Source of the DNA: Candidatus Ruminimicrobiellum bubulum
GTDB lineage: Bacteria; Elusimicrobiota; Endomicrobiia; Endomicrobiales; Endomicrobiaceae
Direction of reading: 5' to 3'
NCBI GenBank assembly: GCA_017651625.1
Contig: JAGCCP010000034.1
Span: 1-32,951, forward strand
DNA: 32,951 bases
The notes under the pieces were generated by a model, which was not told where the DNA came from, did not search any database, and worked only from the letters and a program-made list of their open reading frames with translations. Positions 22,993-30,407 of the stretch are shown here, piece after piece. A program made the position numbers and the translations under genes. Within the stretch, counting starts at the first letter, position 1, and each line of letters begins with the position of its first letter.

Positions 22993-23427
22993 TTAAGAAA
23001 CTTTGCACTTTCTTATATCTGAAAGTTTTACAACTTTTCCATCGCTTCCAACTATTCTTGCTGCAATTGTTACATTTCCCGATTTGAAATAATTCCAATC
23101 AAACCACCAATATCCCGATGCAAATCTGCAAGGTAACCATTCACCTGAATTAAAAGATACTTCAACATAACCATCTGTTGATGCACCGATTCTTAATACG
23201 TAATTATTACCTGCAATTGTTTCATTTTCAACAGGATAATCAACTATAACATAAGAATTCTTCTTTGCTTCCAATTCTTTACTCTTTGCTGAAGAATTTA
23301 CCTTTTTTGTCGAAGCTGCTTTAGAAACTGAACTTTTTTTCTTTGCAACAACTTTCTTTTTTGAAACAGGTTTTGCTGCTGCTGAACTTTCTGCTTTTAC
23401 AACTTTTTTTACTTTTTTTGTGGCCAT
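22993..23427 (-). CDS. Basic-tail protein with Ig-like domain, unknown function
   Basis: A 144-residue protein in two parts. Residues 1-55 are Lys/Ala/Ser-rich with repeats of KKVVAKKK type, like the tail of histone H1 or bacterial histone-like proteins. Residues about 57-144 look like a compact beta-sandwich of the bacterial Ig type: VDYPVENETIAGNNYVLRI, then VEVSFNSGEWLPCRF, YWWFDWNYF, and VTIAARIVGSDGK. There is no signal peptide, so it is probably cytoplasmic, where the tail could bind nucleic acid. Ig-like domains are usually extracellular, which makes the combination odd. An AGGAGTG ribosome site is seven bases before the ATG. It is likely a single-gene unit, divergent from rimP. I do not recognise a named family. 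Confidence 0.8.
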   Translation of the reverse strand: MATKKVKKVVKAESSAAAKPVSKKKVVAKKKSSVSKAASTKKVNSSAKSKELEAKKNSYVIVDYPVENETIAGNNYVLRIGASTDGYVEVSFNSGEWLPCRFASGYWWFDWNYFKSGNVTIAARIVGSDGKVVKLSDIRKCKVS

Positions 23428-23555: not shown

Positions 23556-23585
23556 TTGCAATATTTTATTTTAATTTAGTATAAT
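23556..23585 (+). promoter_or_regulatory. Probable promoter of the rimP-nusA-infB operon
   Basis: TTGCAA (23556-23561) and a perfect TATAAT (23580-23585) are separated by 18 bp. Transcription would start near 23592, only about 47 bases before rimP and about five bases before a terminator-like hairpin. It lies in the divergent gap with the basic-tail gene. Confidence 0.55.
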
Positions 23586-23596
23586 TAACGAAGTTC

Positions 23597-23626
23597 AAAG
23601 GTGGCCGATGTTGGTCACCTTTTTTT
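23597..23626 (+). terminator. Terminator-like hairpin in the rimP-nusA leader (possible attenuator)
   Basis: AAAGGTGGCC (23597-23606) pairs with GGTCACCTTT (23613-23622) over ten bases including one G-U pair, around a six-base loop, and the T run continues to 23626. This is the form of an intrinsic terminator. The gene upstream is divergent, so no plus-strand gene needs terminating here. The hairpin stands between the apparent promoter and the AGGGAG ribosome site of rimP, which suggests attenuation, or a 5' stabilising stem. Confidence 0.7.
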
Positions 23627-23638
23627 ATAGGGAGTTTT

Positions 23639-24094
23639 ATGAATATATCTGAGCAAATAGAAAAAATCATTTCGCCTTTGGCGGAAAAAGAAAACGTTGA
23701 AATAGTGGATATTGAATATGTTAGAGAAAACGGAGAAAACATATTAAGAATATATATTGATAGTCCAAAAGGTGTAAATCTTGATTTGTGTACAAAAATG
23801 AGCCATCTTTTCGGGAATGAAATTGATAAAAACGATCCGATAAAAGATCATTATATTTTGGAAATATCTTCCCCGGGAATAGATAGAATTTTGAAAAAAG
23901 AAAAAGATTTTTTAAGATTTAAAGGTTTTTGTGTAAAAGTAACGACTGCATCGGCAATAAATAATCAAAAACATTTTAAAGGGCATTTGGTTGCAGTTGC
24001 AAACAATAAGATAGTAATTGATGATGTAACAAAAGGAATTGTGGAAATAGAAATATTAAATATAGTAAGAGCACAAGTAGATTCAGAAAATTAA
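23639..24094 (+). CDS. rimP: Ribosome maturation factor RimP
   Basis: Helps assemble the 30S subunit. Its 151 residues match the family. The N-terminal domain includes NVEIVDIEYVRENGENILRI and DLCTKMSHLF, then YILEISSPGIDRILKKEKDF, the strongest family signature; a small beta-rich C-terminal domain follows. An AGGGAG ribosome site lies four bases before the ATG. It opens the conserved rimP-nusA-infB-rbfA-truB operon, ten bases before nusA, immediately after the leader hairpin. Confidence 0.95.
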   Translation: MNISEQIEKIISPLAEKENVEIVDIEYVRENGENILRIYIDSPKGVNLDLCTKMSHLFGNEIDKNDPIKDHYILEISSPGIDRILKKEKDFLRFKGFCVKVTTASAINNQKHFKGHLVAVANNKIVIDDVTKGIVEIEILNIVRAQVDSEN

Positions 24095-24104
24095 TGGAGG
24101 AAGT

Positions 24105-25352
24105 ATGTCTAGTGAACTTATAAATGCACTCGAAACAATACAAAAAGAGAAAAAAATTTCAAAGGAAGAGATTTTGCATGTTATAGAAAATGCTTTAGTA
24201 TCCGCATATAAAAAACATGTCGGTAAAGCCGTTAATGTAGAGGCAAAAGTTGATCCGGAAACCGGAGCTATGTCCGCATGTGTAATAAAAAAAGTTGTCG
24301 AAGAAGTTTCCAATCCTTTATTGGAAGTAAGTCTTCAAGATGCAAAAAAAGTTTTAAAATCAGCAAAAATCGATGAAGAAATAAAAATTCCTTTAGACAC
24401 TGATGATTTCTCGAGAATAGCAGCGCAAACGGCAAAGCAAGTTATTGTACAAAAAATAAGAGAATCCGAAAGAGATTCTTTGTATGAAGAGATGAAAGGC
24501 AAAATAGGAGAGATGATAAACGGTTCTATTTATAAAATAGCAAACAGAAATATAATAGTAGATTTAGGCAGAACAGAAGCTATTCTTCCTGTATCTGAAC
24601 AGGCACCTAAAGAAACTTTTTCTGTAGGACAACACATTAGAGCATTGATAATTAAAGCAGAAAAAAATGCTAAGGGACCTAATATAGTTTTATCAAGAAC
24701 ACATCCTGATTTAGTTAAAGTTTTATTTGAACTTGAAGTTCCCGAGATATATGAAAAGGTAGTAGATATAGTAAATATAGTAAGAGAACCCGGATTAAGA
24801 ACAAAAATTTCCGTTATTTCACATAATTCAAAAGTTGATCCTGTAGGAGCTTGTGTAGGAGTAAAAGGTGCGAGAATAAAACCTATAATAGATGAACTTA
24901 GAGGAGAAAGAATAGATTTGATACCTTTTTCAAATGATCCTGTAAAATATATTACAGCTGCTCTTTCCCCCGCAAAAGTTTTAACAGTTGCAATTATTTC
25001 AGAAGAAGAGAAGAAAGCCGAAGTTATTGTTGCAAACGATATGTTATCTTTGGCAATAGGAAAGTCCGGACACAATGTAAGACTTGCCGCAAGACTTACC
25101 GGTTGGCATATAGATGTAAAATCCGAAGAACAGAAAAAGCAAGAAACAGAGCAAAAAATTGCTAATAAAACATCTGTTTTAGAACAATTAAAAGGCGTAA
25201 GCGATAAAACTATAGAATTATTGGTTCAAGCTGGATTCACAAACATAAATAAAATAGCTGAATTAAAAATTGAAGACTTAACAACTTTACCGGGAATAGG
25301 TGAAAAAACCGCAGAAAAAATTATTGAAGCAGCAAAAGAAGCACTTAAGTAG
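24105..25352 (+). CDS. nusA: Transcription termination/antitermination factor NusA
   Basis: Binds RNA polymerase and nascent RNA and strengthens pausing and hairpin-dependent termination. In 415 residues: N-terminal polymerase-binding domain (1-130), S1 domain (about 135-200, with IVDLGRTEAILP), two KH domains (about 200-345, with DPVGACVGVKGARI and LAIGKSGHNVRLAARLTGW), and one C-terminal helix-hairpin-helix acidic-repeat-like domain (about 360-415, with LTTLPGIGEKTAEKI). A GGAGG ribosome site precedes the ATG. As a termination enhancer encoded behind a terminator-like leader, it is a candidate to regulate its own operon. The ylxR and L7Ae-type genes often found between nusA and infB are absent. 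Confidence 0.97.
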   Translation: MSSELINALETIQKEKKISKEEILHVIENALVSAYKKHVGKAVNVEAKVDPETGAMSACVIKKVVEEVSNPLLEVSLQDAKKVLKSAKIDEEIKIPLDTDDFSRIAAQTAKQVIVQKIRESERDSLYEEMKGKIGEMINGSIYKIANRNIIVDLGRTEAILPVSEQAPKETFSVGQHIRALIIKAEKNAKGPNIVLSRTHPDLVKVLFELEVPEIYEKVVDIVNIVREPGLRTKISVISHNSKVDPVGACVGVKGARIKPIIDELRGERIDLIPFSNDPVKYITAALSPAKVLTVAIISEEEKKAEVIVANDMLSLAIGKSGHNVRLAARLTGWHIDVKSEEQKKQETEQKIANKTSVLEQLKGVSDKTIELLVQAGFTNINKIAELKIEDLTTLPGIGEKTAEKIIEAAKEALK

Positions 25353-25388: not shown

Positions 25389-27680
25389 ATGGCCACAACA
25401 ACAAAAAAAACAACAAAAAAAGAAAGCACAGAAGAAACAAAAGTAAAAAAGACAAAGAAATCGGCAACCACTAGTAGCGGTTCCAAGACAACCACAAAGA
25501 AAGCAAAAGTTTCCGGTTCATCTTCTACAACTGTGTCCAAAACAGAAAAAAAAGCTCCAAAATCTTCTAAAACAAAAGAAAAAACGGAAAAGAAAGCAAC
25601 TCACAAAACAAAAACAGCATCTTCAGATACAAAAAAAGCTGCTCCGGTAAAAAAAGTATCCGGTACAAAAAAGGTTAATGTTCCAAAAAAAGTTTCAGAT
25701 ACAAAAAAAGCAGAAGAACAAAAACAAAATGAACAAGAAAACGAAAAACAAAAAATATTAGAAGAACAGAAAAAAATCGAAGAAGAAAAAAGAAGAGTCG
25801 AAGAAGAAGCAAGAAGAAAAGCTGCAGAAGAGGAAGCAAGAAGAAAAGCCGAAGAAGAAGCGAAAAGAAAAGCTGCAGAAGAGGAAGCAAGAAGAAAAGC
25901 CGAAGAAGAAGCAAAAAAACCAAAGTTACCTTCAATAACAATAAATGAACTTATAACGGTAAAAGATCTTGCCGAAAAAATGAATTTAAAAGTCGGAGAC
26001 ATCTTAAGAAAATTGATGGCATTAGGAACTCTTGCCACAATTAATCAAAGATTAGATACCGATACTGCAATTTTACTTGCAAACGAATTCGGATTTGATG
26101 CAAAGTTATCTTCATTATATGAGGAAGAAAATATCAAAGAAGACTCTTCCGAAAATGACAAAGCAAATCTTCAACCAAGATCTCCGATAGTTACAATTAT
26201 GGGACACGTTGATCACGGTAAAACTTCTTTGCTCGATGCAATAAGACATAGTAATGTTATAGCCGGTGAAGCCGGTGGAATAACACAACATATAGGAGCT
26301 TACAGAGTAAAAACTTCTACCGGAGAAATAACATTTTTAGATACTCCGGGACATGAAGCTTTTACTGCAATGAGATCAAGAGGTGCACAAGCAACAGATA
26401 TTGTTATATTGGTTGTTTCGGCAGCCGATGGTGTTATGCCTCAAACAATAGAAGCAATAAACCATGCAAAAGCAGCAAATGTGCCCATAATAGTTGCAGT
26501 AAATAAGATTGATTTACCTACAGCAAATCCTGAAAAAATAAGACAAGAAATAAGCAATTATGGTTTACTTCCTGAAGAATGGGGTGGTGATACCATAATG
26601 GTTGATATATCCGCAAAACAAAAATTAAATATAGACTCTTTGTTAGAATTGGTCCAACTTAAAGCAGAAATGATGGAACTAAAAGCAAATCCTAACAAAC
26701 ATGCAGAAGGTATAGTTATAGAAGCAAAATTAGATCCTAAAAGAGGAGCTGTTGCTACCGTACTTGTTCAAAGCGGAACTCTTCATGTAGGAGATAATTT
26801 AGTTGTAGGAACAACTTTCGGTAAGGTAAGAGCCATGATTGATGAATACGGAAAGAGATTCGACAAAGCCATACCAAGTATGCCTGTAGAGATATTGGGA
26901 TTAAACGAACCTCCTCAAGCCGGTGATAAATTTATTGTATTGGAACATGAATCTCAAGTAAGAGAAATAGCTAATGCAAGAAAAGAAAAAGCTAAAGCCG
27001 ATGCATTAAGGCCGAAACAACATGTTTCCTTATTAGATTTAAATGCAGGTAAAGCAAAACATCTTAAGATTATTTTAAAAACCGATGTTCAAGGTTCCTT
27101 GGGCGCATTGTGTGATGCTCTTGAAAGAATGTCTAACTCGGAAATAAATTTGGAAATTATACATAAAGGTGCAGGGTCCATTACAGAATCCGATGTGGTT
27201 TTGGCTGCAGCTTCCGATGCCTTGATTGTAGGCTTTAATATAAGACCTGATGCGGCAGTAGAAAAATTAGCAGAGACAGAAGGTGTAAGCATAAATGTTT
27301 ATAGAATCATTTATGACCTTATTGCCGATATTAAAGCTGCTATGGAAGGTTTGCTTGATCCTGACACACAAGAGAAAATTACGGGAAAAGCTGTTGTTAA
27401 ACAAGTATTTAAATTATCTTCAGCAGGGACAGTTGCCGGTTGTACCGTAACGGAAGGTAAAGCTCAAAGAAATGTTAAAGTAAGACTTTTAAGAGATAAT
27501 GTTATTATATTTGAAGGCAGTACTTCCGCAATAAAAAGATTCAAAGATGATGTTAAGGAAGTTGAAAAAGGATATGAGTGCGGTATTTCTCTTGAAAACT
27601 TTTCTGATATAAAAGTTTCCGATGTCATGGAATTCTTTACCATAGAAAAAATTGCAAGAAAGTTAGTAAGTGAAAACTAG
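25389..27680 (+). CDS. infB: Translation initiation factor IF-2
   Basis: GTPase that places initiator tRNA on the ribosome. In 763 residues, a long low-complexity N-terminus (1-180) is rich in Lys, Thr and Ser and then in Glu/Ala/Arg coil repeats. An IF2-N domain follows (about 180-240, [18 protein letters not shown]). The GTPase domain has G1 GHVDHGKT near 271-278, G3 DTPGHEAF, G4 NKID and G5 SAK, followed by domains II-IV ending about 760. An AAGGAG ribosome site lies 11 bases before the ATG. The lysine-rich start resembles the tail of the basic protein at 22993-23427, probably through shared composition rather than descent. Confidence 0.98.
25821..25912 (+). repeat. 51-bp tandem repeat inside infB
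   Basis: A 51-bp unit beginning GCTGCAGAAGAGGAAGCAAG occurs at 25821-25871 and again from 25872, identical over the first 41 bases. It encodes a 17-residue Glu/Ala/Arg/Lys helix unit. The near identity suggests recent slippage duplication, so repeat number may vary between strains. Confidence 0.85.
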
Positions 27681-27724: not shown

Positions 27725-28081
27725 TTGAAAGCATACAAAAGAGCAACAAGAGTTGCGGAATTAATACAAAAAAATATAGCTGAAATTTTGAGAGATATCA
27801 AAGAATTAAATAAAGGGTTAGTAACGGTAACAAGCGTAAGACTTACCGATGATTTACAAACCTGCAGAATATTTTATTCCGTTATCGGAACGGAAGATGA
27901 TAAAAAGAATGCGGAAAAAGTGTTAAATGAAAATCTTAAACAGATAAGATATCAACTCGCACAAAACATGGAATTAAGAAGAACACCTACGATAGATTTT
28001 AAGTATGATGATTCCGGGGAAAAAGCGGAGAAAATATTTGAAATTTTAGATAAAATAGAACATGAAAAAGATAATAAATAA
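27725..28081 (+). CDS. rbfA: Ribosome-binding factor A
   Basis: Cold-adaptation and 16S maturation factor acting on the 30S subunit. The 118-residue length is typical. The KH-like fold shows YKRATRVAELIQKNIAEILR at the start, VTVTSVRLTDDLQTCRIFYS in the middle and RRTPTIDFKYDDS near the end. The start codon is TTG at 27725, supported by a GCGGAG ribosome site six bases upstream (27713-27718) and by the conserved N-terminus. It overlaps nrnA by 20 bases. Confidence 0.94.
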   Translation: MKAYKRATRVAELIQKNIAEILRDIKELNKGLVTVTSVRLTDDLQTCRIFYSVIGTEDDKKNAEKVLNENLKQIRYQLAQNMELRRTPTIDFKYDDSGEKAEKIFEILDKIEHEKDNK

Positions 28082-29066
28082 TAACTTAACACTACAAAAC
28101 AGCTCAAAGAAAGAAATTCTTGACGCTATATCAAAAATCATTAAACAATCGAAAACTTTTTTTATAGCCGGTCATACAAAACCTGACGGAGATGCTCTCG
28201 GTTCAGGACTCGCACTTTCATCTTTATTGAGAAGAATGGGCAAAAAAGTTACTCATTGTTCATTGGACCCTGTTCCTCAAGATATGGTTTTTATGAACGG
28301 TTCAAAAACCATAAAAATAACAAATAAAATATCAAAAAAGTTTGATTGTGCAATTATTTTAGAGTGCATAAGTTTTGAAAGAATGGGAAACATTATTTCC
28401 CCTTCTCAAGCAAAAAAAATAATAAACATCGATCATCATCTTGCTCATACAAATTTCGGAAATGTCAATTATATTGTGCCTACTTCATCGTCAGTTTCAG
28501 AATTGATTTATGATATTTTTATAAATCTAAAAAAGCTACCTACAAAACAAGAAGCTGAAAATTTGTATGTGGGCATTGTAACCGATACCGGAAGATTTCA
28601 GCAATTGAACACAAATGCAAATTCTCATTTAGTTGTTGCAGACTTATTAAAACTCGGTGTTAATTCTAACAAGCTTTGTAAAAAATTATTTTTGACAATG
28701 GAAATTTCAAAAATGAGGCTATATGGTTTTGCCTTATCAAATATTGAAACTGCTTATGATGAGAAATTAGTATATATAAAATTAACGAAAGAAATGTTTA
28801 ATAAAGCTAAAGCTTCCGACACAGATACCGATGGTATAATAAACTATTGTATTTCCGCACCTAAAGCCGTTGTAGGTTGTTTACTTAAAGAAGCTGATAA
28901 AAATTCAACTAAATTAAGTTTTCGTTCAATAGAAAAATTTAATCTATTAAATATTGTTAAACTGTTTAACGGCGGCGGTCATAAAAATGCCGCAGGATGC
29001 ACTATAAATGCAGATATAAATACTGCAACAAAAAAAATCATTCAAGCTTTTAAAGGTAAATTATAA
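28062..29066 (+). CDS. nrnA: DHH/DHHA1 phosphoesterase, NrnA-like (nanoRNase/pAp phosphatase)
   Basis: NrnA degrades very short RNAs, including pGpG, and dephosphorylates pAp. At 334 residues it has the family length. Motif I is GHTKPDGDALGS, motif III NIDHHLAH, motif IV GIVTDTGRF, and the DHHA1 substrate motif GGGHKNAAGC. The usual Asp of motif II is Glu here (AIILECISFERMG), a conservative change at a metal ligand. The position between rbfA and truB is conserved in many bacteria. Since two diguanylate cyclases are encoded nearby, degradation of the c-di-GMP product pGpG is a plausible cellular role. Confidence 0.92.
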   Translation: MKKIINNNLTLQNSSKKEILDAISKIIKQSKTFFIAGHTKPDGDALGSGLALSSLLRRMGKKVTHCSLDPVPQDMVFMNGSKTIKITNKISKKFDCAIILECISFERMGNIISPSQAKKIINIDHHLAHTNFGNVNYIVPTSSSVSELIYDIFINLKKLPTKQEAENLYVGIVTDTGRFQQLNTNANSHLVVADLLKLGVNSNKLCKKLFLTMEISKMRLYGFALSNIETAYDEKLVYIKLTKEMFNKAKASDTDTDGIINYCISAPKAVVGCLLKEADKNSTKLSFRSIEKFNLLNIVKLFNGGGHKNAAGCTINADINTATKKIIQAFKGKL

Positions 29067-29753
29067 GTGCAATATAACGACTTTTCCGGACTTCTATTAG
29101 TAAATAAACCTATAGGAATTACCTCTTTTAAGCTTGTTCATATTATCAAAAAAATTTTCAATGTAAAAAAAGCAGGACACTGCGGAACGTTAGATCCGTT
29201 AGCAAGCGGTCTAATGATTGTTTTATTAGGCAAATACACAAAACTTCAAGACAGATTCATGAAACAGGATAAAGTTTATTACACTGAAATAAAATTAGGT
29301 TTAAAAACGGACAGCGGAGATCTTGACGGTAAAGTAATTTCACAATCCGATTATTCGCATGTAACAAAGGATTTAATAGAACAAGCATGTGAAAGTTTCA
29401 TCGGCAAAATCAGTCAAATTCCCCCCATGTATTCTGCATTAAAAGTTAATGGTAAAAAATTATATGAACTTGCACGCAAAGGAATTACTATTGAGAGAAA
29501 ACCGAGAGAAATAACAATTTATAATATAGATTTAATCGATTATCAAAAAGATTTTTTTTCAATAAGAATAAAATGTTCAAGCGGAACATATATTAGAACA
29601 TTGGCAGAAGATATTGGAACAAAGTTAAACACAGACACGGTCATAACCAAATTAATACGAGAAGAAATCGGTAACTACAAGCTTTCAGATGCGACAGATA
29701 TTGAAAAGATAAAGGAAACCGGTTCCGAATATTTGCAAAAAATTGATTTTTAA
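29067..29753 (+). CDS. truB: tRNA pseudouridine-55 synthase
   Basis: Converts U55 of the tRNA T-loop to pseudouridine. The catalytic aspartate is D43 in GHCGTLDPLASG. Other family blocks are GLLLVNKPIGITS at the start, QIPPMYSALKVNGKKLYELAR, and KCSSGTYIRTLAEDIG. At 228 residues it lacks a full C-terminal PUA domain, like many short bacterial TruB proteins. The start is GTG at 29067, directly after the nrnA stop, giving a seamless translational junction. Confidence 0.95.
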   Translation: MQYNDFSGLLLVNKPIGITSFKLVHIIKKIFNVKKAGHCGTLDPLASGLMIVLLGKYTKLQDRFMKQDKVYYTEIKLGLKTDSGDLDGKVISQSDYSHVTKDLIEQACESFIGKISQIPPMYSALKVNGKKLYELARKGITIERKPREITIYNIDLIDYQKDFFSIRIKCSSGTYIRTLAEDIGTKLNTDTVITKLIREEIGNYKLSDATDIEKIKETGSEYLQKIDF

Positions 29754-30324: not shown

Positions 30325-30353
30325 GAAACCTTGAATAAATATTAATTTAAAAT

Positions 30354-30389
30354 AAAAAAAGCAGATGACGAAATTCATCTGCTTTTTTT
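30354..30389. terminator. Strong bidirectional intrinsic terminator
   Basis: AAAAAAAGCAGATGA (30354-30368) and TCATCTGCTTTTTTT (30375-30389) form a perfect 15-bp inverted repeat with a six-base loop. It is flanked by A and T runs, so it works on both strands. It lies between the convergent ends of the membrane-protein gene and the large HExxH gene. Confidence 0.95.
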
Positions 30390-30407
30390 ATAAAATTATA
30401 TACTTCA

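Follow-up and report, generated by a model that had tools for sequence, protein, structure and literature searches.

On the forward strand of the window, the whole 32,951-nt stretch of Candidatus Ruminimicrobiellum bubulum DNA analysed here, lies a gene cluster headed by rimP (23639–24094, with its ATG at 23639), identified by Pfam matches to RimP_N (4.6e-23) and DUF150_C. Following it are nusA (24105–25352), with NusA_N (1.8e-37), S1, KH and HHH domains, and infB (25389–27680), assigned by Pfam and encoding IF2; open reading frames and Pfam matches place rbfA, a DHH phosphoesterase gene and truB in the putative remainder of the operon (27725–29753). The rimP stop codon and the nusA start are 10 nt apart on the same strand, and the two genes are probably co-transcribed. 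Close relatives of RimP among named genomes are those of Candidatus Ruminimicrobiellum ovillum and other ruminal Elusimicrobiota, followed by Candidatus Praeruminimicrobium and Candidatus Proruminimicrobium, which makes Endomicrobiaceae the most likely family of this DNA.

Divergent from rimP, on the minus strand, are a gene for a 144-residue protein (22993–23427) and smc. The preliminary description of this DNA had pointed out that, with a divergent gene upstream, only the operon's own transcript could be stopped ahead of rimP, and the orientation of the 22993–23427 reading frame agrees with it. The N-terminus of the 144-residue protein is histone-like and rich in Lys and Ala, its C-terminal part (SYVIVDYPVENETIAGNNYVLRIGAS...) is well conserved, and a Pfam search with it returned no match. 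Three further congeneric genomes keep the gene, and a radical-SAM-like gene occupies the position in a fourth.

Packed into 83 bases from 23556 are, in order, a promoter, a hairpin, a run of seven T residues and a ribosome site, leading into rimP. The promoter, called from sequence and conservation, is of sigma-70 type (23556–23585), composed of TTGCAA (23556–23561), an 18-nt spacer and TATAAT (23580–23585). Judged from the promoter position (6–8 nt 3′ of the −10 hexamer), transcription would start at 23591–23593. The gap between TATAAT and the stem is 11 nt, and beyond it is the terminator-like stem-loop AAAGGTGGCCG-ATGT-TGGTCACCTTT (23597–23622), which has a 4-nt loop and a stem of 11 pairs counting the G–U closing pair, or 10 without it; sequence, folding, covariation and covariance-model matches (R2 and R3, below) all support it. 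Overlapping the end of the stem is the U tract (T7, 23620–23626), where the sequence and a terminator score of d = 39 predict a termination zone about 30–36 nt from the start. The ribosome-binding site AGGGAG (23629–23634) completes the leader, which, counted from a start near 23592, would be about 47 nt of untranslated RNA with the U tract ending at about position 35. Both elements of the preliminary description, a promoter-like pair ending in TATAAT at 23585 and a ten-bp stem with a T run at 23597–23626, are thus present, the former conserved in the genus and the latter one G–U closing pair longer.

The rimP-leader hairpin is the best-scoring terminator-like match of a 7-kb scan, and no other terminator-like element in the window's second half has as many G–C pairs. 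Its terminator score d, computed with a d'Aubenton-Carafa formula, is 39. As a yardstick, an apparently genuine bidirectional terminator at 30345–30398 scores 31 and 40 on its two strands; this strong element lies between convergent genes and has a 17-pair stem in the scan, with a T run on either strand. An equal or better hairpin with a T run arose in 1 of 1,000 dinucleotide shuffles of the rimP intergenic region, and the fold of the predicted 35-nt transcript (−15.2 kcal/mol, z = −4.3) was matched by none of 200 shuffles. Terminator-like matches as a class are not enriched in the 7-kb scan (5 seen, against 4.0 ± 2.0 in shuffles), and promoter-like matches are equally frequent in its shuffles; because chance matches are common in this AT-rich region, the promoter call rests on conservation in relatives.

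That conservation is complete within the genus, where TATAAT is found in all nine rimP-holding genomes, 11–12 nt 5′ of the stem and preceded by a −35 element of TTGCAA or TTGCAT, and where genus-wide conservation climbs at 23574–23588. The wider family sample consists of rimP leaders from 64 Endomicrobiaceae genomes, 58 of them distinct. The preliminary reading hinged on conservation of the stem in related genomes, and a terminator-grade hairpin (d > 0) is indeed found close 5′ of the start codon in 61 of the 64 family leaders. The leader of one relative has TTTAGTTTTT. Upstream neighbours, named by eye from sequence, vary by genus and include the divergent Lys-rich gene, radical-SAM-like and GAPDH-like genes, co-directional rplA and others, and the hairpin is retained in family genomes whether the neighbour is divergent or co-directional; read from this sequence context, it goes with rimP, not with the gene upstream. 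Genera g1, g2, g4, g5, g7 and g10 repeatedly show a −10 hexamer 9–17 nt 5′ of the stem. No −10 hexamer was found near the stem in many members of g3, which have co-directional rplA upstream and in which the hairpin is still there, and some family leaders keep the stem though their closest −10-like hexamer is 25–43 nt upstream. In two g3 leaders (L026 and L022), a ribosomal protein L1-like gene precedes rimP in the same direction.

The stem is preserved as a structure. Compensatory changes, which the preliminary description had proposed looking for in the rimP leaders of relatives, are found in a MAFFT alignment of the 58 distinct family leaders (A1), with both sides changed in 7 of the 10 stem pairs. 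Standard pairs make up 93.4% of cells in this alignment and 27.6–62.6% in slid controls, a comparison that favours the true register since the structure was drawn from the same sequences; the change counts are less exposed to that bias. Pairs 12–33, 15–30 and 17–28 of A1 are near-invariant, and pairs 13–32, 14–31 and 16–29 swap. Conserved as well in the family alignment is the U tract immediately 3′ of the stem. In a separate alignment of 29 leaders from outside the family, both sides changed in 6 of 9 pairs; these leaders were picked for having a hairpin, so that the covariation counts as evidence and the percentage paired does not.

Covariance models extend the comparison to greater depth. 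With the family model, in which the window itself is included, the rimP site ranks first in its own genome (E = 2.3e-4). It also ranks first there, by modest margins, with a model built without the genus (R2; E = 0.049, runner-up 0.18) and with one built without the whole of Endomicrobiaceae (R3; E = 0.019, runner-up 0.23), and the specificity claimed for R2 and R3 is confined to this genome. R3 does not detect rimP leaders alone, other terminators scoring equally well or better in some family genomes (for example, G058).

Among 45 Elusimicrobiota leaders from outside the family, 38 have some terminator-grade hairpin, and the strict pattern GYGGC...GCCRC followed by T is present in 27, against 0.05 in shuffles. 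As a measure of conservation this strict pattern was set aside, as it fails in the window's own genus owing to a G–U pair (GGTGGCC/GGTCACC) and other swaps; pattern counts therefore understate conservation there, and covariance models took the place of the pattern. Not every member of the phylum has the element, since four rimP leaders of family f8 in the same class (L119, L123, L126 and L161) lack a terminator-grade hairpin. In f13, another Elusimicrobiota family, the rimP leaders L141, L145, L150, L156, L157 and L160 have a distinct stem in common, near-identical among them, AAGCGACTTG...CAAGTCGCTT.

Other phyla were sampled through a few named loci. The best R3 match of the locus is the rimP leader in Negativicutes (L079 and L082) and in a Myxococcaceae genome (L083), and in Escherichia coli (L162) it is the last rimP hairpin, a weak match (11.6 bits, E = 0.76) with a close runner-up. 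It is conceivable, and in our view doubtful, that GYGG...CCRC is an ancient signal of the rimP-nusA-infB operon common to Elusimicrobiota, Negativicutes and Myxococcota, whose individual letters a protein such as NusA would recognise, and not simply one terminator hairpin among others; on the weak E. coli match, such sharing might perhaps extend to Gammaproteobacteria.

Attenuation of this operon by NusA is not a new idea, having been published as a hypothesis for other bacteria. Naville and Gautheret (2010) named the rimP-leader, the most ubiquitous attenuator of their survey, noted no antiterminator and proposed NusA as the effector, mentioning RimP feedback as also possible (PMC2965389). 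Its general form is a terminator 4–130 nt from the gene start with the stem signature GGGc...gCCC (PMC2965389). The element described here shares with it a hairpin and T stretch directly 5′ of rimP-nusA-infB (16 nt from the gene start in the window), conserved stem letters and the lack of a visible antiterminator, the inferred transcript having about five nt 5′ of the stem. The GGGc...gCCC signature itself was found in none of the 64 family leaders and none of the 45 other Elusimicrobiota leaders, which have the GYGGC...GCCRC core instead. The window gave no match to the Rfam family RF01770 'rimP' at the gathering score or up to E = 10 (E. coli control, 102 bits), and across Rfam up to E = 10 the leader gave chance-level matches only. 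The gammaproteobacterial leaders of RF01770 likewise end in a terminator hairpin just 5′ of rimP, but carry tandem hairpins across about 100 nt, unlike the leader here. Most likely, as far as the tested signature and arrangement tell, the window element works like a rimP-leader, of which it would be a variant particular to this lineage and not a member in the strict sense.

Closest in arrangement is the same operon of Streptococcus agalactiae (gbs0413–gbs0418), in which RNA-seq mapped termination to 31 nt from the operon start at an intrinsic terminator and NusA feedback was suggested (PMC4448216); termination is mapped there and predicted here, and the likeness is one of arrangement. In Bacillus subtilis, NusA-stimulated intrinsic termination in its own leader is reported to set nusA expression (Mondal et al. 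2016, as cited in PMC12288461). The B. subtilis nusA operon leader is about 180 nt long (PMC2965389), compared with about 47 nt here.

Distal interruptions of the U tract are a reported trait of NusA-dependent terminators (PMC8060035). The tract is interrupted in 53 of the 58 distinct family leaders, at positions that lie mid-tract and are not clearly distal; an uninterrupted T7 is seen in the window species and in only four other distinct family leaders. With its uninterrupted T7, the window species may have a strong terminator that relies less on NusA than those of its relatives do.

The explanation that best accommodates these observations, and which we hold with moderate confidence, is a promoter-proximal intrinsic terminator acting as an attenuator of the rimP-leader type with feedback from NusA. 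RNA polymerase would start near 23592, and the first 31 nt of RNA would already contain the hairpin. A fraction of polymerases would then release an RNA of about 30–36 nt at the U tract, and the rest would continue into rimP-nusA-infB-rbfA, with release or read-through depending on the stem-loop, its U tract and the factors bound. NusA, the product of the second gene of the operon, would strengthen hairpin formation and pausing, such that high NusA gives less read-through. That the hairpin terminates transcription, and does so leakily, is highly probable from its sequence features. Less certain is the identity of the main effector, for which NusA is the favoured candidate by analogy with other bacteria. 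A search for an antiterminator found no sequence long enough 5′ of the stem, where the inferred transcript has about five nt. On paper, early rimP sequence could pair with the 5′ arm, but this candidate was dropped, the rimP partner being downstream of the terminator. With no room for an antiterminator and no sensor, the choice points to a protein or to an intrinsic leak.

An intrinsic leak without feedback from NusA or any other factor, fixing operon expression at a low level, is the foremost of the competing explanations and has a modest chance of being correct. The very short leader, with neither sensor domain nor antiterminator, is compatible with it, as is the optimal T7 of the window copy; however, the promoter alone could set a fixed level, and deep conservation at this operon, together with the published effects of NusA elsewhere, argues for regulation. 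Regulation might also come from another reader of the hairpin among the operon products or the ribosome-assembly machinery (RimP, IF2 or a 30S component), affecting termination or translation. Constraint on the letters of the stem seems to exceed what pairing demands, some A1 pairs being near-invariant where others swap, and RimP feedback was itself raised by Naville and Gautheret (PMC2965389), but the published cases are explained by NusA alone and we regard such a reader as improbable.

Two further explanations dispense with termination of the operon's transcript as the hairpin's purpose. A 5′-terminal stem that shields the mRNA from decay, the alternative offered in the preliminary description, would suit the window, where about 5 nt would separate the stem from the inferred 5′ end; it is disfavoured, and about as improbable as a reader other than NusA, because hairpin and U tract persist in leaders with the −10-like hexamer 25–43 nt away or, as in many g3 members, with no promoter found close upstream, and because a stabiliser has no need of the conserved U tract. 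Least probable of all, and very unlikely indeed, is an ordinary terminator or insulator against transcripts arriving from upstream. Co-directional rplA in g3 could use the hairpin in this manner, yet the upstream gene is divergent in the window and in other genomes of the genus, and the operon has its own conserved promoter ahead of the hairpin, which would also stop the operon unless transcription started in the interval from 23626 to 23639, too short to leave much room. The preliminary description is confirmed in what it observed and partly supported in how it read it, and the NusA-responsive attenuator stays the reading we prefer.

The present analysis extends the published hypothesis to Elusimicrobiota, where the stem signature differs and covariation lends support. 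At about 47 nt between inferred start and start codon, the leader is close to a minimal attenuator. A published control mechanism, so far little tested, for a core operon of gene expression would thereby be carried into a deep, mostly uncultured phylum, in which about a hundred leaders, with their covariation and natural strong and weak U-tract variants, make the NusA-feedback hypothesis directly testable.
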